A DNA stretch of 37,316 nt from a virus: IMG/VR virus record IMGVR_UViG_3300044904_000013, positions 1 to 37,316 of that record. One strand, given 5' to 3'. Each line of letters starts with the position of its first letter. The first letter of the stretch is position 1. This document shows positions 1 to 37,316 of the stretch, piece after piece. The position numbers were made by a program, and so were the translations under genes. The notes below the pieces were generated by a model that had not been told where the DNA came from, did no database searches, and worked only from the letters and a program-made list of their open reading frames with translations.

Positions 1-241
1 CGACGGGCTCACTGGACGCCTCCCTGCACATGAAACCGACCAAACTGGCCGTCCTTCTCTGGCCGCCACTCGCCGATGCCGGTGCCGAACCCGCCCGCGT
101 CGAGCATCGCCACGAGCTGTTCGGCCGAGACGATCCGCGCGTTGTACGTGATCGGAAGGTCGATCGACCATTCGGGGAACTCGCCGCGGTAGCGGATATC
201 GGCGGTATTGCCCTGGAGTCGCACCATGTCTTCGCGGGGCC
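1..241. repeat. Terminal direct repeat, left copy
   Basis: These 241 bases recur at the right end of the window, with one difference (G at 114, C at 37189). The difference is synonymous in the leftward gene that covers it (both codons are Leu). A gene that is cut at the right end is complete here, so the repeat most simply marks circular closure of a complete phage genome rather than two real terminal repeats. The mismatch could be a population variant or a read error. Confidence 0.9.
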
Positions 242-584
242 GCGGGTCGCCATTGATCCGCAGGAGATCGCCCTCGATGTGGAAGGCAGTTCGGGCGTCG
301 GTCATGACCATACCGAGGCCCTTTGCGCCGCGGATGGCCGCAGCCTTGACGCCGACCGCTGGGAAGCCGCAGCCGCCGTCTGGCAGCCGGTACAGCGATT
401 CCTCGTAATCACGCTCTGGGTTCTTGGCTTCCTTCGCTTGCGTGCCCTTCTTCATCTGTTTGTCGAGCATCATCTGCTTGGCCTTGTGCGACCAGGCATG
501 TGTGATGAGTGGGCTATCGCCCACGATCCGCACGGTGATGCGGCGCACGTCGATGCGCTCGGGACTGACCTGTACGGTTTCCAT
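9..584 (-). CDS. Conserved phage protein, RAMP/Cas7-like by motif
   Basis: A 191-aa protein whose start ATG (582-584) follows a GGGAG ribosome site. I recognise it as a widespread phage/prophage family with no function I can name. By eye it has features of the RAMP (Cas7-like, RRM-fold) superfamily. There is a first strand RITVRIVGDSPLITH near residues 14-28. A stretch GFPAVGVKAAAIRGA near residue 72 resembles the RAMP IPGSSLKGALR segment. A glycine-rich end GFGTGIGEWRPEKDGQFGRF resembles the C-terminal G-loop. Such proteins bind RNA as filaments; that role is inferred, not shown. It is the first gene of a leftward operon with a strong promoter. Its stop overlaps the GTG of the next gene (positions 37084-37087 in the right-hand copy). 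A 5-nt-periodic array follows that gene. Confidence 0.8.
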   Translation of the reverse strand: METVQVSPERIDVRRITVRIVGDSPLITHAWSHKAKQMMLDKQMKKGTQAKEAKNPERDYEESLYRLPDGGCGFPAVGVKAAAIRGAKGLGMVMTDARTAFHIEGDLLRINGDPRPREDMVRLQGNTADIRYRGEFPEWSIDLPITYNARIVSAEQLVAMLDAGGFGTGIGEWRPEKDGQFGRFHVQGGVQ

Positions 585-630: not shown

Positions 631-659
631 AATCTACTACTCCCTATACCCGGTGTCAA
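631..659 (-). promoter_or_regulatory. Sigma70-type promoter of the leftward operon
   Basis: Read leftward, TTGACA (654-659) is followed after exactly 17 nt by TAGATT (631-636). The -35 is a perfect consensus and the -10 has four of six bases. Transcription would start near 624 and leave about 40 nt before the ATG at 584, with a ribosome site in that leader. It is the best promoter I can see in the window. Confidence 0.75.
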
Positions 660-4601: not shown

Positions 4602-5848
4602 CGCGCATTCTCTTCCTCGGGGACAGCGCCGGGACCGGCTTCGGTTCGGTCACCAAGGATCTCGGCTTGGCGCTGATCGCGCTCGGCGAGGACGTGCGGT
4701 TCCTCTCGCTGAATGAGCAGGCCGGCGGCGACCTGCCGGAGCCGTTCGCAGGGCGCACGGCGATCCTCGACAACCCGAACGGCTGGCTGGCGGACCACGT
4801 GAACCCGGAGGTCGTGGCGCGGACCGTGGCCCGCATGGAGGGCATGTTCACGGGTTCGCTCTTCGAGGACGGCTGGGCGCCCGAGGCCGGGATCATCCTC
4901 GGCGATGTGGCCTCTGTGAAGATGAGCCCCGTCCCGCAGTTCATCCCCGACGGCTTCCCGGTGTTCCACTACGTTCCGATCGAAGGCGACGGCCTACCGC
5001 CGGCGTGGGCCGCCGTGTGGCGCAAGATGCGCCCGGTGGCGATGTCGCGCTTCGGTGCCGACGAGATCGCCCACATCTATCCGCAGCGGCCGCCCGTCGT
5101 CTACCACGGCGTCAACCCTGACGACTTCTGGCCGGTGAGCCAGAAACGCCCGATCTACCTCGAGACGGCGAAGGGCACGCGCAAGCTCCACTCCAAGGCG
5201 GACTGCAAGAAGCTCTTCGGACGGCCGGCCGACCGGCTCACGTTGCTTCGCACCGACCGCCATATGCCGCGCAAGATGTACCCCTCGCTGTTCCGGGCAC
5301 TCGGCCCCGTGCTGGCGCGGCATCCGAACGTGGACTTCGTGTGGCACTGCGCCACGCGCGACCAGGGCGGCGATCTCTCCGACGAGGTGAGCAAGTACGG
5401 CAAGATCGCCAGCCAGCTCTTCTCGTCGGGCTACCACGACCAGTACGGCGGGCTCGACCGTAAGCTGCTCAACGCGCTGTACAACGCGGCCGACATCTAC
5501 GTGTCCAACTCGTCGGAGGGCTTCGGGCTCTGCATCGCCGAGGCGCTGGCGTGCGGCGTCCCGGCCGTCGGTATCAAGTACAGCGCGGTGCCCGAGGTGA
5601 TCGGCCCGGCTGGTGTCACGGTCCCGATCTGCACCCGGATTGACAACGTGTACTCCCACTTCTGGGGCTGGGCCGACGAGGGCAAGTTTGGCGCCGCCGT
5701 CGAGTCGCTCGTGAATGACGCCGTACTGCGCACCGTGCTCGGTGCCAAGGGGCCCGGACACGTCGCCGCCAACTTCACATGGCCCGCCGCGGCCCTTCAG
5801 TTCCGCGACATGATCGCCGCAGCAGTCCCGCAGGAGGCGGCAGCATGA
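4598..5848 (+). CDS. GT4-like (GT-B) glycosyltransferase
   Basis: 416 aa, the expected size of a full GT-B enzyme. The N-terminal half starts MTRILFLGDSAGTGFGSVTK, a Rossmann strand with a glycine loop, and contains FHYVPIEGDGLPPAW. The C-terminal half carries NALYNAADIYVSNSSEGFGL, then CIAEALACGVPAVGI, the EX7E donor-binding motif of family 4 (Glu near residues 306 and 314). The ATG at 4598 overlaps the previous stop, and the stop at 5848 overlaps the first head-tail connector gene. This enzyme is therefore physically coupled to virion genes. Confidence 0.88.
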   Translation: MTRILFLGDSAGTGFGSVTKDLGLALIALGEDVRFLSLNEQAGGDLPEPFAGRTAILDNPNGWLADHVNPEVVARTVARMEGMFTGSLFEDGWAPEAGIILGDVASVKMSPVPQFIPDGFPVFHYVPIEGDGLPPAWAAVWRKMRPVAMSRFGADEIAHIYPQRPPVVYHGVNPDDFWPVSQKRPIYLETAKGTRKLHSKADCKKLFGRPADRLTLLRTDRHMPRKMYPSLFRALGPVLARHPNVDFVWHCATRDQGGDLSDEVSKYGKIASQLFSSGYHDQYGGLDRKLLNALYNAADIYVSNSSEGFGLCIAEALACGVPAVGIKYSAVPEVIGPAGVTVPICTRIDNVYSHFWGWADEGKFGAAVESLVNDAVLRTVLGAKGPGHVAANFTWPAAALQFRDMIAAAVPQEAAA

Positions 5849-6582
5849 CTACATCCCTCGCCGTCTCCGCTCAGGACGTCCGTGACTATCTCGGCCTCGA
5901 CATCTCGGGCAACTCGCGGTACACGGACGCCACGATCGGCTCCAATATCCGCGCCGCGCAGAGCAAACTCGAGAAGGACACGCACCGCTTCCTCGTCGAC
6001 CACGTGGGGCTCACGTGGGCCACCACGACGATGCTCGCGGCGCAGGTCGCCATCCCCGGCTTCCGCAACTTCACGACGGCGACGTTCGGCGGGACGATCT
6101 TGTCCGTGACGGTTCCCGGCGACGGCAATACGAGCCCGTCGGCGTGGGCGGTGCCCGACGATCTCAATACCGGGACGTTCGTCGCGCTCCAGTTTCGCCC
6201 GTGGCGCGCCGACTCAGAGATGCCGTGGTGGCTCGCGCTTGGCGGTCAGAACTCGTGGTTCGACCAGGCGGCGGACAACCCATTCGATCCACGCAACCGC
6301 GGCGGCGGCTACGCGTGGACGAGCATGCCGAATGACCTTGTGATCGTCGGCGACGCTGGCTGGGACTCGACGCTGCCGACCGATGACTACGGCGGCTACC
6401 CTTCGGCGTTCCTCCAGGCCGTCAAGGTGCTGGCCGGGTTCTATATCAAGCGCAGCGACGCGATCCTCGCCGACGTGGCGATCACGCCGCAGGGCGGCAT
6501 CCTCCAATACAGCCGCCTCCCCGATGAGGTGCGCGGGTTCATCGCCGACTTCAAGATCGGCAGTCAGGCGAGGTCAATGTGA
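5845..6582 (+). CDS. Head-tail connector / adaptor protein (gp6-like)
   Basis: 245 aa. The start MTTSLAVSAQDVRDYLGLDI is typical of phage adaptor proteins that dock under the portal. It is followed by TIGSNIRAAQSKLEKDTHRF and a C-terminal helical part AFLQAVKVLAGFYIKRSDAI. A beta-rich insert lies between them, making it longer than minimal gp6-like adaptors. The ATG at 5845 has an upstream GGAGG and overlaps the glycosyltransferase stop. Its place before HK97 gp10-like and tail terminator genes fits head completion. Confidence 0.7.
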   Translation: MTTSLAVSAQDVRDYLGLDISGNSRYTDATIGSNIRAAQSKLEKDTHRFLVDHVGLTWATTTMLAAQVAIPGFRNFTTATFGGTILSVTVPGDGNTSPSAWAVPDDLNTGTFVALQFRPWRADSEMPWWLALGGQNSWFDQAADNPFDPRNRGGGYAWTSMPNDLVIVGDAGWDSTLPTDDYGGYPSAFLQAVKVLAGFYIKRSDAILADVAITPQGGILQYSRLPDEVRGFIADFKIGSQARSM

Positions 6583-6722
6583 TCTGCTCACGCTGCGGCA
6601 AGCGCCGATCCCGCGTGGCGCACGTTCCGCTGCCGCTCACGGGCGAGCTCCGGGCGCTCTGCTTGCGCTGCTTCGCCCCGGTGTTCCTCGAGCACATGGG
6701 GCAGCTGGTCGCACATGGCTGA
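6579..6722 (+). CDS. 47-aa zinc-ribbon protein
   Basis: A GTG start overlaps the previous stop (GTGA), and the stop overlaps the next gene by 8 nt. The protein opens ICSRCGKRRSRV and later has LCLRCFAPVF, giving a CxxC - 25 residues - CxxC pair, the pattern of a small zinc ribbon. Its position between the connector and gp10-like genes is like that of tiny unnamed proteins in actinophage head-tail modules. The function is unknown. Confidence 0.65.
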   Translation: MICSRCGKRRSRVAHVPLPLTGELRALCLRCFAPVFLEHMGQLVAHG

Positions 6723-7257
6723 GGAGTACATCAAGGGGATGGCGCAACTCCGGGCACGGCTTCAGGCTGTCGGGGCGTCGGCGACGCACACCAAGATCCT
6801 GACGGCGGGGGCCGGCGCGGTCATCCGCGAGCAGAAGCTGCTGGCGTCCCGCTTCCGCCGTACCAGCTTCCTCGAGCACAGCATCCAGATCACGGACGCC
6901 AGCCCGACGAGCGTCACGATCAAGTCGCTAGCGCCATACTCCCGCTACGTCGAGGAGGGCACCGGCATCTACGGGCCGAAACACGCCAAGATCACGCCGA
7001 CCGCGAAGATGGCGCTGGCGTTCCACTCGCAGAAGGCGGGCGCTGAACGGTTCGGGATCAAGTACCGCCTCACCGGCGCGATGACCGCCGCGAGTGCCCG
7101 GCAGTACGGCGGTACGAACGCCGACATGGTGGTGGTGGCCTCCGTCAAGGGCCGACCCGCCACGCCGTACTTCTTCCCCGGCGCGCAGATCGGCATCCAG
7201 AAGACGGGCGGCGACCTCGCCGCCGTGATCGTCAAAGCATGGGATGAAGCGAAGTGA
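6715..7257 (+). CDS. HK97 gp10-like head-tail completion protein
   Basis: 180 aa. It starts with a helical part (GMAQLRARLQAV, then GAGAVIREQKLLASRF) and contains APYSRYVEEGTGIYGPKHAK, where YVEEGT is the typical HK97 gp10 segment. It ends KGRPATPYFFPGAQIG, the usual P-A-x-P-F/Y ending of this family, followed by a last helix. HK97 gp10 family proteins sit at the head-tail joint or tail completion ring. Position and length both fit. Confidence 0.82.
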   Translation: MAEEYIKGMAQLRARLQAVGASATHTKILTAGAGAVIREQKLLASRFRRTSFLEHSIQITDASPTSVTIKSLAPYSRYVEEGTGIYGPKHAKITPTAKMALAFHSQKAGAERFGIKYRLTGAMTAASARQYGGTNADMVVVASVKGRPATPYFFPGAQIGIQKTGGDLAAVIVKAWDEAK

Positions 7258-22537: not shown

Positions 22538-23052
22538 TCCGGCGCGTCGGCTGCGTGGTTCTGGTGCTGCTCTCGCTCGCCTTCTTTGCCGGCCTGCTCC
22601 TGACGGCGCAGACGGTCGGCGTCGAGGCATGGCACGACTCGGCGTTGCCGCAGTCAGCGTTCGTGGCGATTAGGAGCGCCGGCACGGAGTGGCCTTCGGG
22701 ACACGCACTCCTGGCGCTCCCTCAACCACGAAAGGAGGTGCGCTCTGTCCGACTACCCGTCGGTTCCGTTAGCGCGGCCCCGTCAGCCCATTTCGACTCC
22801 TCGATGCTGACGGGGCTTGCCTCCTGGTGGGACATCGGCAGCGGCCTGTACGCCGCTCTCCCGGGCTACGTCGCCGGGACGCACGTCACCGTTATCGTCT
22901 GCGCTGGTTCGCGCTGTCTCACGCTCCCCGTGGTCACGAGCTGCCAATGCCTAGTCGGGACGGCGAGTGCCCGCATCATCGACTTGTCCCGCGACGCATT
23001 CGCCCGGCTCGCGCCGCTCTCGCAAGGGCTAGTGGAGGTGACGATCCCATGA
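22534..23052 (+). CDS. RlpA-like exported double-psi beta-barrel protein
   Basis: 172 aa. Residues about 6-26 are a hydrophobic signal or anchor (GCVVLVLLSLAFFAGLLLTA). From about residue 93 the sequence fits the RlpA double-psi barrel: LASWWDIGSGLYAAL, VAGTHVTVIVCAGSRCLTLP, SCQCLVGTASARIIDLSRDA, then FARLAPLSQGLVEVTI. The IDLSxxAFxxLxPLxxG end is characteristic. RlpA proteins bind or cut peptidoglycan glycan strands. Here it may help lysis or superinfection exclusion. The usual catalytic Asp before SCQC is not evident, so enzymatic activity is uncertain. Confidence 0.75.
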   Translation: MIRRVGCVVLVLLSLAFFAGLLLTAQTVGVEAWHDSALPQSAFVAIRSAGTEWPSGHALLALPQPRKEVRSVRLPVGSVSAAPSAHFDSSMLTGLASWWDIGSGLYAALPGYVAGTHVTVIVCAGSRCLTLPVVTSCQCLVGTASARIIDLSRDAFARLAPLSQGLVEVTIP

Positions 23053-23163
23053 CCACCCGCGACACTCCCGAGGCCGCGCTGGCTGCGGCGCTGTTCGCGT
23101 GTGACGATCCCATGCCCATCCGCGACACCCCCGAGGCCGCGCTGGCTGCGGCGCTGTTCGCGT
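23038..23163 (+). repeat. Tandem 63-bp in-frame duplication
   Basis: Copies 23038-23100 and 23101-23163 differ at only three bases. The unit covers the gene start, so the protein begins with two copies of a 21-residue block containing RDTPEAALAAALFA. A related block opens the next gene (RDTPEAALKRAMYA). Confidence 0.9.
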
Positions 23164-33607: not shown

Positions 33608-34657
33608 ATGGCGAAAGACCCGAACGTCGGCGGTGGCCGGGATCGCACGAAGATCCCGAAGTCGAACTTCGTCTTCCCTGAGGATGCTCCCGATGGCGGC
33701 TTCCCCGTCGTCACGGCGGGCGACGTGTCCGACGCCGTGAGCTCGTGGGGCCGCTACAAAGGCCCGCACACCTTCGACGAGTTCAAGGCGCGCCTGACGG
33801 CGCTTGCCAAGCGGCTCGGGTTTGCCTCGTCGCTGCCGGCCGCTTGGAAGAGCGGTAATAAGAAGGCCGGCGATCTGAAGGCCGAGCCGATGGACTCGGG
33901 GCAGCTCGATCGTTGGCTCGGCGGCAAGATCCCGCGACGCATCCTCATGCTGCCGTTCGGCGGCAAGCTGAAGGCTGAACTCTGGGGTTATCCGCCGGAC
34001 GACGTGGGCCGCGATCTCGATGGCGATTACGCCGACAAGGCGACGGACATCTACGGGCCGTTCCCCTCGCTGCGCGCGTCTCGCGATCGGCTCGTCGACT
34101 GGCACCACAATGACTGGGGCGTCGAGGCCGTTGATCCGCGCGCCTCGCGGATGAAGGGTGCGATCATCGGAAAGGCCGTGATCGATCCGCAGCCCGAAGA
34201 CGATGGCTACTGGGCCGACTGGTGGGCCAACGCCGGCGAGGCGCGTCTCGCGCTCGTGGAACGCCTCGAGCGGCTCGGAACGCACCTATACGGCAGCACG
34301 CAGGCCGTCAAGTCGGCCATCGTGCGCAGCGCGATCGGGCATCTCGACGTGTGGCCGATCTTCCGTCACACGATCTCCACATCTCCACAGAACACCCTCG
34401 CCGTGGTGCCGCCGCTGAAGGCGCTGCTCGCGGCGGACATTCCCGATGATGTCGGATACGCCGCCGTGAAGGCAGCGCTTACCGGCTTCGACGCGGCGCA
34501 ACGCTTGGGCAAGAGCTCTCCGAACGGCGGTTCCGGCTTCCGTTCAGATGGTGACCGCTCCGGTACGGCGCGCGCCAGCAAGGCAGAAAGGAAGGCTGCC
34601 GCCCTGGCGCTCCAGTTCATGGAGCGGTACCAGGCTCGGCATCAGGAGACACCGTGA
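33608..34657 (+). CDS. Prohead protease-like / scaffold protein
   Basis: 349 aa with GGAG before the ATG. The part GQLDRWLGGKIPRRILMLPF, DGDYADKATDIYGPFPSLRA, RLVDWHHNDWGVE, AIIGKAVIDPQPEDDGYWAD and LGTHLYGSTQAVKS resembles a capsid protease domain of serine type, with His in WHH and Ser in LYGSTQAV as candidate active residues. The N-terminal 90 residues (SAVSSWGRYKGPHTFDEFKA-like) are a separate small domain. The C-terminus is charged and helical, like a scaffold. It lies directly before the capsid gene. Confidence 0.65.
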   Translation: MAKDPNVGGGRDRTKIPKSNFVFPEDAPDGGFPVVTAGDVSDAVSSWGRYKGPHTFDEFKARLTALAKRLGFASSLPAAWKSGNKKAGDLKAEPMDSGQLDRWLGGKIPRRILMLPFGGKLKAELWGYPPDDVGRDLDGDYADKATDIYGPFPSLRASRDRLVDWHHNDWGVEAVDPRASRMKGAIIGKAVIDPQPEDDGYWADWWANAGEARLALVERLERLGTHLYGSTQAVKSAIVRSAIGHLDVWPIFRHTISTSPQNTLAVVPPLKALLAADIPDDVGYAAVKAALTGFDAAQRLGKSSPNGGSGFRSDGDRSGTARASKAERKAAALALQFMERYQARHQETP

Positions 34658-36141
34658 GCAAGAAGGACATGAAGGCCATCCTCGCGCAGATGCGTGAGCT
34701 GGCGAACCGCGAGGATGCGGCAACGAAGGAAGGCGACGGTGGCCGCAAGGCCGAGGCGGCAGACGGCCGCGCAGCCGTCGCCAAGCAGTTCGTCGCTGCC
34801 GACACCGAGAAGCTCGGTGACGAGATCAAGAAGGGACGCAAGGCTTCCACAGAGCAGCGCGTCGAGGAACTGACGAAGTTCCTGTATGACAAGCGCAAGG
34901 GATCGAAGGCCGCGCTCGTCGGGCCGGGGAAGTCGCTTCAGTCCGGCATGTTCGGGAGCCGGATCAAGGGCAACTCGGCCGGCGTTCGCCCGGTCGCTGC
35001 GCTCAAGGCCAGCTTCCAGAACTACCGCGCCGGCGAGTTCATCGCAGCCTACGCCGGTGCCAAAGGCTACCTGACCGACTGGCGCGACACCGAAGTCGAG
35101 ATGGCGGCCAAGGCCAAGCTGAATGAGTTCGCCCTGTGGGCGGGGCCGCCGGATCGCTCCAGCGCGCTCCTGCTCATCGGCGGCGACGGCAAGGCTACGC
35201 TGGGCACCAGCGGCGCTACCGGCGGCTACGTGCTTCCGAATAACCTGGTCGACTCGGTTATCAAGCCGAACGTCCAGCAGGCCATCTATCCCACGCTGGG
35301 CGTCCGCGTCATCGGCGGCGTCGCAGTTCGTGGAGTCGATCAGCCGTACCGCACCGGGGCTCCGGCGCGGGCGCAGTTCGCTGACTGGGGATCCAGCAAG
35401 CAGCTCGTCGACGAGGCCTACGGGTCGTACACCGCGACCCTCGGCACGCTCGCCAAGATTTACGACGTTGGCAAGCAGTACCTCAGATTCTCCGCAGGAA
35501 GTGCCGAGCAGGACGTGATGGACGAGCTCACCAAGAGCTTCGCCCTCGCGGAGAACTACGCGATCATCGCCGGGCCGGGTACCGGCGCAGTCACGCCGGG
35601 CGTCAACGACCCGACGTATGGCCTGTACACCGCGCTCGTGGCGGGTGCGGCGACGTACACCAGCGCCATCGCCGCTCCGTCGAACGCGACACTCGTCGGC
35701 TCGTTCGCCGCGGGCCTCCAGACTGCCTCCGCAGCGCTGCGGGTTCGCAGCCGGGCGCCGTCCGGCTGGGTCGTGGACGCGACCACCTTCTCCACCGTTA
35801 TCGCCCAGGGTACCGACGCGGCGGGCTTCTTCGTGAACCCGGCCGGCGGCCCGACAGGCTTCCGCATGACCGACAGTGGTCAGCTCACCTTCTGGGGTGT
35901 CCCGATCTTCTTCGACTCGAACCTCGGCACGAACGCGACCACCAAGATCGCGATCGGCGGCGAATGGGACAGCCTCAAACTCTATCGCGGCATTGAATTT
36001 CGGATTGACAGCAGCGACGTTGCCGGGACGCGCTGGGACCAAAACTTGGTCGGCTTCCGCGGCGAGGAAGAGATCGGCATCCATGCAGGAAGCGCGGTTT
36101 CGGTCGGCGCCTTCCAGCTTCTGACTGCGGCAATCGCGTAG
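34654..36141 (+). CDS. Major capsid protein, HK97 fold
   Basis: 495 aa from a GTG that overlaps the protease-like gene. Residues 1-90 are a charged helical region (KKDMKAILAQMRELANREDA, then KKGRKASTEQRVEELTKFLY), as in the delta domain that acts as an internal scaffold. After about 165 the capsid fold follows: TSGATGGYVLPNNLVDSVIK, IYPTLGVRVIGGVAVRG, GSAEQDVMDELTKSFALAEN, and the end FRGEEEIGIHAGSAVSVGAF. The TGGYVLP and closing strands are typical of phage capsids. The delta domain would be removed by the protease. Confidence 0.88.
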   Translation: MSKKDMKAILAQMRELANREDAATKEGDGGRKAEAADGRAAVAKQFVAADTEKLGDEIKKGRKASTEQRVEELTKFLYDKRKGSKAALVGPGKSLQSGMFGSRIKGNSAGVRPVAALKASFQNYRAGEFIAAYAGAKGYLTDWRDTEVEMAAKAKLNEFALWAGPPDRSSALLLIGGDGKATLGTSGATGGYVLPNNLVDSVIKPNVQQAIYPTLGVRVIGGVAVRGVDQPYRTGAPARAQFADWGSSKQLVDEAYGSYTATLGTLAKIYDVGKQYLRFSAGSAEQDVMDELTKSFALAENYAIIAGPGTGAVTPGVNDPTYGLYTALVAGAATYTSAIAAPSNATLVGSFAAGLQTASAALRVRSRAPSGWVVDATTFSTVIAQGTDAAGFFVNPAGGPTGFRMTDSGQLTFWGVPIFFDSNLGTNATTKIAIGGEWDSLKLYRGIEFRIDSSDVAGTRWDQNLVGFRGEEEIGIHAGSAVSVGAFQLLTAAIA

Positions 36142-36160
36142 TCTAGCGGATAGTGAAAGG

Positions 36161-36198
36161 AGGCCGGACGTGATGCAGACACTGCACCCATCCGGCCT
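36161..36198. terminator. Two-part hairpin between convergent genes
   Basis: AGGCCGGA (36161-36168) pairs with TCCGGCCT (36191-36198). Inside, TGCAG and CTGCA pair around a 3-base loop. The outer stem has 8 bp, the inner stem 5 bp, and 5 and 4 unpaired bases lie between them. It starts 19 nt after the capsid stop. Read leftward it closes the pentamer array and is followed by CCTTTC. It could end transcription from either side or fold the 3-prime end of the array RNA. A true T-run is missing. Confidence 0.65.
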
Positions 36199-36560
36199 CT
36201 ACCTGCCCTGCGTTGCCCCGCCCGGCCAAGCCAGGCCTTACCAAGCCGCTCCGTGCCCAGCCTCGCCCCACCTGCCCGACCTTGCCGTACCTTGCCGTGC
36301 GTTGCCCCGCCCAGCCTCGCCATGCCAAACCGTACCGCGCCTGCCGAGCCTCGCCACGCCTAGCCTCACCCTGACGGGCCTACCATACCAAACCAGCCCG
36401 GCCATACCACACCCTGCCGCACCGCGCCTTGCCCGGCCCAACCAGACCCCGCCTAGCCCAACCCCGCCTGACCTGCCTCGCCAAGCCGTGCGCTACCCTG
36501 CCGAACCCAACCTAACCGCGCCCGGACATGCCCTGCCTGAACCCGCCTTGCCTTGCCCGG
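36196..36560 (-). repeat. Degenerate 5-nt-period array, (NNNGG)~74 on the transcribed strand
   Basis: On the + strand a CC pair recurs about every 5 bases for 365 bases. I count about 74 units, most exactly 5 nt, seven of 4 nt and two of 6 nt, with only five imperfect pairs (CG or AC). The three bases between pairs vary widely, so this is not a copied microsatellite; what is kept is the step. Read leftward the RNA is GGNNNGGNNN..., starting 5 nt after the stop codon of the gene at 36566. This is the content of the only gene-free stretch over 300 bases in the window. Confidence 0.92.
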
Positions 36561-36565
36561 CTCGC

Positions 36566-37087
36566 TCAGTGAAGAGCGATGATCGCCTCATTGGCAGTGG
36601 CGAGGGCTTGGACGGCGAGCATGATGCGCGCGACCTCGCCGCGCTTGTGCCCGGTAGTGCGAGCGACCTCGAGGAGTTCGGCAACGCGGCGTTGCGCCGA
36701 CGCGAGATCACGCTGCGCCTCAGCGAGCGCCGAGAGGTAGCGGTCGGGCATCGTGACGATCTTGGAAAGCGGCTGGTAGTCGCCCTCGCCGGCCGTCTCG
36801 GAACTAACGTGAACGTACATGGACTCGGCCGGATGATCGTCGATCATGACCACGACCGCGCGCACGAGGCGTCGAGCCTGTTCGAGTCGCAGTTGGTGCG
36901 CCGCCGTCACATCGTCCCACTCGAAGAAGGGATGCAACGGCGCGTCGGCGGCTTCTGCCTCGGCGACGATGGCCTCGGACTTGAGCGTGCCCTGCTCGGC
37001 GCGGATGCGTTCGAGTTCGGCAGCGACGGCCGCGGCGTCACCGTGGAAGCGGCTGCCCTCGCGGAACTGGTAGACCGACGGGCTCAC
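36566..37087 (-). CDS. Conserved phage protein of unknown function, second gene of leftward operon
   Basis: 173 aa from a GTG that overlaps the stop of the RAMP-like gene (GTGA), with GGGAGG upstream. It opens SPSVYQFREGSRFHGDAAAV and has PLHPFFEWDDVTAAHQLRLE followed by QARRLVRAVVVMIDD, then MYVHVSSE and a long helix LSALAEAQRDLASAQRRVAE. I recognise this as a family shared by many phages and prophages, but I know no function. The helical halves and a central beta segment are all that can be seen. The pentamer array begins 5 nt after its stop. Confidence 0.75.
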   Translation of the reverse strand: MSPSVYQFREGSRFHGDAAAVAAELERIRAEQGTLKSEAIVAEAEAADAPLHPFFEWDDVTAAHQLRLEQARRLVRAVVVMIDDHPAESMYVHVSSETAGEGDYQPLSKIVTMPDRYLSALAEAQRDLASAQRRVAELLEVARTTGHKRGEVARIMLAVQALATANEAIIALH

Positions 37088-37316
37088 TGGACGCCTCCCT
37101 GCACATGAAACCGACCAAACTGGCCGTCCTTCTCTGGCCGCCACTCGCCGATGCCGGTGCCGAACCCGCCCGCGTCGAGCATCGCCACCAGCTGTTCGGC
37201 CGAGACGATCCGCGCGTTGTACGTGATCGGAAGGTCGATCGACCATTCGGGGAACTCGCCGCGGTAGCGGATATCGGCGGTATTGCCCTGGAGTCGCACC
37301 ATGTCTTCGCGGGGCC
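37076..37316. repeat. Terminal direct repeat, right copy
   Basis: The same 241 bases as at the left end, with C at 37189 in place of G at 114. It joins the leftward gene of the right end to its start at the left end. Confidence 0.9.
37084..37316 (-). CDS. RAMP/Cas7-like protein, right-end partial copy
   Basis: The C-terminal 77 residues of the gene at 9-584, cut by the end of the contig. This copy shows the GTGA junction with the next leftward gene. It is not a second gene; it is the overlap of the circular sequence. Confidence 0.85.
   Translation of the reverse strand, partial: PREDMVRLQGNTADIRYRGEFPEWSIDLPITYNARIVSAEQLVAMLDAGGFGTGIGEWRPEKDGQFGRFHVQGGVQ

Follow-up and report, generated by a model that had tools for sequence, protein, structure and literature searches.

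The stretch of DNA considered here, IMG/VR virus record IMGVR_UViG_3300044904_000013 (the window, 37,316 nucleotides in all), is that of an uncultured phage, and it carries beside the major capsid gene a small cassette consisting of a vipr gene, a partner gene and a long array of GGYNN pentamers (Table 1). The genome is circular, bases 37076-37316 being a repeat of bases 1-241 with one mismatch, and because these terminal 241 bases are duplicated, the leftward operon crosses the contig junction. The start of gene 2 overlaps the vipr stop by GTGA. A preliminary description of this DNA had proposed a strong promoter, two coupled genes and an array in a row across the circular junction, and the terminal repeat, the overlap and the promoter are all found. 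What kind of system is this? VIPR, a kind already described in a 2026 preprint (PMC13142463), provides the answer, and the window holds a further case of it.

Table 1. Position and properties of the cassette features and the adjoining capsid gene in the window
Feature	Position	Strand	Remarks
vipr (gene 1)	9..584	-	191 aa, RAMP (Cas7/Csm3-like), phrog_4652
partner gene (gene 2), candidate vap	36566..37087	-	173 aa, phrog_15946, GTG start
GGYNN pentamer array (vrRNA guides)	36562..36204	-	~75 units, begins a few bases past the gene 2 stop
segment A	36474..36562	-	17 NN, four imperfect GGY
segment B	36395..36473	-	15 NN
segment C	36381..36394	-	2 NN, short, flanked by two 4-nt steps
segment D	36342..36380	-	7 NN
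segment E	36273..36341	-	13 NN, matches sister-phage major capsid gene
segment F	36204..36272	-	13 NN, matches second site in sister-phage major capsid gene
sigma-70-like promoter TTGACA-17-TAGATT	659..631	-	10/12 matches; shuffle mean 0.0
two-part hairpin	36160..36199	-	at array 3' end, boundary shared with converging capsid gene; -33.1 kcal/mol, z -5.2
carrier major capsid gene	34654..36141	+	phrog_10 major head protein, E=4e-20; homologue of the targeted gene

As described in Escherichia phage SUSP1 and in a Pseudomonas fulva prophage (type II; PDB 36pp), VIPR consists of the RAMP protein Vipr, a vap gene and vrRNAs of 9-16 YNNGG repeats, and seven types have been distinguished, some with staggered arrays (PMC13142463). 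The vrRNAs co-purify with Vipr. Their NN pairs recognise double-stranded DNA with one base skipped per pair, the skip bases being mostly at wobble positions, and the targets are competing phages and satellites; reprogrammed complexes repress transcription (PMC13142463).

Gene 1 is a Vipr protein of RAMP fold. A profile built from 42 of its relatives matches the PDB entry 36pp, 'SUSP1 Vipr protein', at E=1.5e-40, and the single sequence gives a weaker match to SUSP1 Vipr (E=4.6e-6). The AlphaFold2 model, for which the alignment input consisted of the window and locus rows only, has a pLDDT of 91. Csm3/Cas7-type subunits occupy the top Foldseek ranks throughout, and VIA-align superposes the model on Csm3/Cas7 with a Z of 11.3 and a root-mean-square deviation of 3.5 A over 150 residues, so that the RAMP-like character first suggested for gene 1 is borne out by the comparison of models. 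The family shares a conserved glycine-rich motif, G(x)GxGEWRPEKDG. Searches of Pfam, NCBIfam and PADLOC returned no credible family.

The second gene is a conserved companion of vipr in most loci and is coupled to it, in keeping with the two-gene make-up of VIPR; it is a candidate vap. Its protein is modelled at a pLDDT of 88 and has no significant fold match (Foldseek best E 0.26). Matches proposed by VIA involve only the C-terminal helices and, with Z up to 8.8, lie within the helix background, and no fold was assigned.

Of 75 array units, 70 have the first G, 72 the second G and 73 the Y, and base composition at the NN positions is nearly even. A score for chains of GG at 5-nt steps reaches 51; 500 dinucleotide shuffles of the array stretch never exceed 10.8, and the rest of the window never exceeds 5.0. 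The array is thus real, but the fixed 5-nt step attributed to it is not uniform: the periodicity is interrupted by 4-nt steps, where GGC(A/T) runs directly into the next GGY. Over all loci the usual form of this step is GGCAGGC or GGCAGGT, and its commonest spacing is 44-64 nt. As this is the length of one published guide, the window array was cut into guides at the 4-nt steps, giving segments A to F. CRISPR direct repeats with unique spacers were not found at the locus, which has degenerate pentamers only, and Rfam gave no CRISPR family in 36000-37316 and nothing relevant otherwise.

Could the array be part of a translated repeat protein? A plus-strand open frame does span it (36170..37108), and in Gordonia phage UmaThurman the array has been annotated as a gene. 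Units of 5 nt mixed with 4-nt steps would shift the frame repeatedly, however, and on the plus strand this frame runs antisense to the partner gene, which makes translation of the array a vanishingly improbable explanation.

Is the array regularly tied to the gene? An array above threshold is present near 61 of 80 viral loci with relatives of gene 1 (45-97% identity, GC content 0.44-0.71); it starts after the vipr start in 56 of these loci and before it in 5. Some of the 19 loci without an array score represent cut contigs or degenerate arrays. Conversely, a search with the array motif only (GGY at 5-nt steps) found at least 120 contigs, and gene 1 is present in 85 of 120 within the fetched stretch and in 36 of 50 whole records. 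Whether a locus was found by gene or by array, the array is on the vipr strand (146/146 loci). Where loci were chosen for capsid similarity and not for Vipr, a Vipr match is confined to the G058 record and no array passes the threshold. The preliminary description had asked whether homologous gene pairs lack such arrays; with these counts in both directions, always on one strand, they regularly have them. Its core proposal, a RAMP-like protein and a periodic RNA joined in one operon, is upheld by the linkage counts, the Cas7/Csm3 fold and the binding published for a family member (PMC13142463).

The arrays of some individual loci deserve mention. Strong arrays lack a Vipr match in 35 of 120 contigs within the fetched stretch and in 14 of 50 whole records (L089-L208); they could be fragments, carry distant Vipr types or have orphan arrays. 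In L057, L058 and L069, many array units downstream of the partner gene have GT or GC instead of GG and are missed by GG scans; these arrays are degenerate or follow a related consensus. Arrays also occur in isolated phages, i.e. Mycobacterium phages Brocalys and Saal, Gordonia phages ODay and UmaThurman, a cyanophage, and Felixounavirus TP1. In UmaThurman, gp40 (L211:6577-6900) is annotated as a hypothetical protein over a GGYNN array, with a repetitive peptide rich in R, G, A, Q and W; it is probably a spurious gene call. TP1, of a well-known coliphage genus, has several short pentamer blocks on both sides of its vipr homologue (L214:5300-5510, 6705-6900). Locus L032 likewise has arrays on both sides of vipr (4857-4936 and 6052-6150), the upstream one flanked by a terminator-like hairpin and a ribosome site, and a gene resembling that of a single-strand-binding protein (SSB) lies downstream of these arrays.

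Such repeats might also act as DNA, for instance as a site of replication, recombination or single-strand binding, with the neighbouring RAMP protein in a DNA-binding role. The strong bias of the G-rich strand and the SSB-like gene near the arrays in L032 and L036 would suit this explanation. Yet the array always lies on the vipr strand, whether it is 5' or 3' of the gene, and the L032 arrays follow a terminator and precede a ribosome site. The NN content moreover encodes capsid sequence (see below), and the small RNAs of the published relative co-purify with Vipr (PMC13142463). A role as a DNA site is therefore very unlikely.

The central question is what the NN bases specify. When NN pairs are taken to read target bases with a 1-nt skip per pair, guide E fits best in the major capsid genes of L235 (23/26 bases) and G059 (21/26), both sister phages, and guide F at another capsid site, with 20/26 bases in four sister phages. 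The two sites are about 590 bp apart. Over 36 capsid-bearing loci, the top 10 loci at skip 1 are all on the capsid sense strand for E, and likewise for F, and those of each guide share one site; with skips of 0, 2 or 3 the number of capsid loci in the top 10 falls to 0-2. In 150 dinucleotide-order shuffles the mean number of capsid loci in the top 10 is 0.8 for E and 0.5 for F, with maxima of 7 and 6. In a smaller set of related phages, none of 300 shuffles reached the E score. In both matches the skipped bases are third codon positions, and the peptides obtained on decoding are similar to capsid motifs, e.g. ATFIDWGTTKTN and GEW..(F/L)KL(F/Y)RG. That the GGCA step marks a guide boundary is supported at both ends of the matches: each opens with the unit directly following such a step, and in nearly all listed sites the NN just ahead of the next step is a mismatch.

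Several points weigh against reading E and F as capsid guides of a VIPR system. A recognisable target exists for only two of the five guide segments, and neither match is perfect. Guide F alone is modestly significant in the smaller set, where 2-4% of shuffles reach its score (P 0.02-0.04). The 20-base gapped E pattern, which matches at just two places across the whole viral collection, each in a capsid gene, was freed at two units that mismatch G059 and is hence not fully independent of the G059 match. Finally, the published vap class and the type, one of seven, are not assignable from the main text of PMC13142463. Segments A and D have no target above control, and none was found for B; exact 9-unit patterns for E and F have no match in viral contigs. 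The exact 9-unit B pattern has two homologous sites, where all flanking units mismatch, and these were set aside as chance. As the matches of E and F are imperfect, the actual target phage lies outside the collections. A score for decoding at the amino-acid level was poorly normalised across reading phases, and no weight is given to it.

Might the system then be VIPR, with its true targets elsewhere and the capsid matches a coincidence or an artefact of codon composition? The imperfect matches and the segments without a target leave some room for this. The top 10 loci, on the other hand, are all in capsid sense, at one site per guide and at skip 1 only; shuffles that keep the composition do not reproduce the capsid top 10; and the E pattern finds nothing but capsid genes across the collection. 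Chance or codon usage is thus an unlikely source of the matches. Equally, the array could be a protein-binding decoy, a scaffold or an attenuator RNA like that of TRAP, devoid of target-coding content. Triplets at pentamer spacing do resemble the (G/U)AG-NN sites of TRAP, but the protein has the Cas7/Csm3 fold and not that of TRAP, and the spacer bases hold capsid sequence. This explanation is extremely improbable, and the scaffold or decoy of the preliminary description gives way to guides whose NN bases carry target information.

The surroundings of the cassette add a further line of evidence. It sits between the capsid gene stop (36141) and a gene starting near 660 (listed open reading frame 596). 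The relative L217 has 89% identical DNA over 3.3 kb up to the capsid stop, with the slot empty and the next gene immediately after. The gap at the slot is about 5 bp in G061 and about 260 bp, with a small open reading frame, in G059; the G059, G060 and G061 records have no Vipr match. In G058 the slot (L224:6990-8560) is filled by a divergent Vipr (E about 1e-8) with a short pentamer array of its own, in the same orientation as in the window. The carrier's own homologous capsid sites match guide E at only 13/26 bases and guide F at 17/26.

It is very probable that the window encodes a VIPR system whose guides E and F address the capsid genes of sister phages, with silencing of a competitor's capsid as the likely outcome. 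At the level of sequence and model comparison, the grounds for this are the family and fold of Vipr, the presence of the array and its same-strand linkage to vipr, the capsid matches obtained on decoding and the occupied or empty slot; expression, RNA processing, Vipr binding and silencing in the carrier phage would follow by analogy with the published relative. By that analogy, too, the module probably serves to silence competing phages. The operon would be read leftward across the circle junction into one RNA that holds Vipr, the candidate Vap and then the guide array, in which guides are joined head to tail and set apart by the 4-nt GGCA step. As in SUSP1 VIPR, Vipr subunits may sit on successive GGY triplets, leaving the NN pairs free to base-pair with double-stranded DNA, with one target base per pair left unread. 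Bound at two sites in the capsid gene of a sister phage that enters or resides in the same host, E and F would silence its transcription, and the diverged capsid allele of the carrier would escape.

How does this compare with known systems? The window shares with the VIPR of SUSP1 and P. fulva a homologous Vipr, a two-gene operon, same-strand GGY/NN guides and residence in a phage, as well as competitor-phage targets read with a 1-nt skip (in the window, segments E and F only). It differs in that its guides are concatenated and GGCA-separated, the published ones being individual RNAs of about 100 nt that have a structured tail; its Vipr sequence is distant; and decoding points to the sister-phage capsid gene as the target. 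The odds are slightly in favour of a distinct VIPR architecture, characterised by GGCA-delimited concatenated guides in a capsid-side slot, which would silence sister-phage capsids where that slot is empty or differently filled. With the Csm3/Cas7 subunits of type III CRISPR-Cas the protein shares the RAMP fold and, by analogy, a filament type of RNA binding. Unlike in type III systems, no CRISPR repeats were found at the window locus, guide pairing is gapped and there is a single RRM-type protein. TRAP is similar in its triplets at pentamer spacing and different in its unrelated fold and its lack of a guide function.

The locus is of interest for several reasons. Sequence alone, from uncultured phages, lends support to the code by which this newly described RNA-guided system skips one base per pair. 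A structural late gene of close competitors, a target class unmentioned in the main text of PMC13142463, may be added to the competing phages and satellites. The capsid-side slot, found empty, occupied or replaced, is a clean case for studying the movement of guide cassettes and self-avoidance by the carrier. Lastly, the GGCA step offers a practical rule for splitting continuous arrays, by which many metagenomic arrays should become decodable.

Targets for other arrays were also sought. Those of L009, L011, L014 and G058 have no target above control in the sequences searched, and when 207 loci were searched against one another for targets, the yield barely exceeded the shuffled background. A guide run in L045 (1570 onward) matches, with a 1-nt skip, a similar place in the Vipr-bearing loci L052, L058, L069 and L076; possibly this represents a VIPR targeting another VIPR.

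The hairpin at the array end had been counted as part of the module. The structure itself is real (Table 1), but it may belong to the 3' end of the capsid gene instead: G059 and G060 have different hairpins directly after the capsid gene, which suggests a capsid terminator rather than a vrRNA tail. A nearly identical hairpin ends the slot of G058, as in the window. Terminators 3' of arrays are not general (12/56 and 15/81 loci, vs 4 and 11 for random stretches). The closing hairpin also has a sub-threshold Rfam match to mir-1421.

One capsid relative lies in a Chloroflexi metagenome-assembled genome, a weak hint that the host may be of a Chloroflexota lineage. Elsewhere in the window, at 23038-23163, a coding region contains two tandem 63-bp copies that match at 95%.
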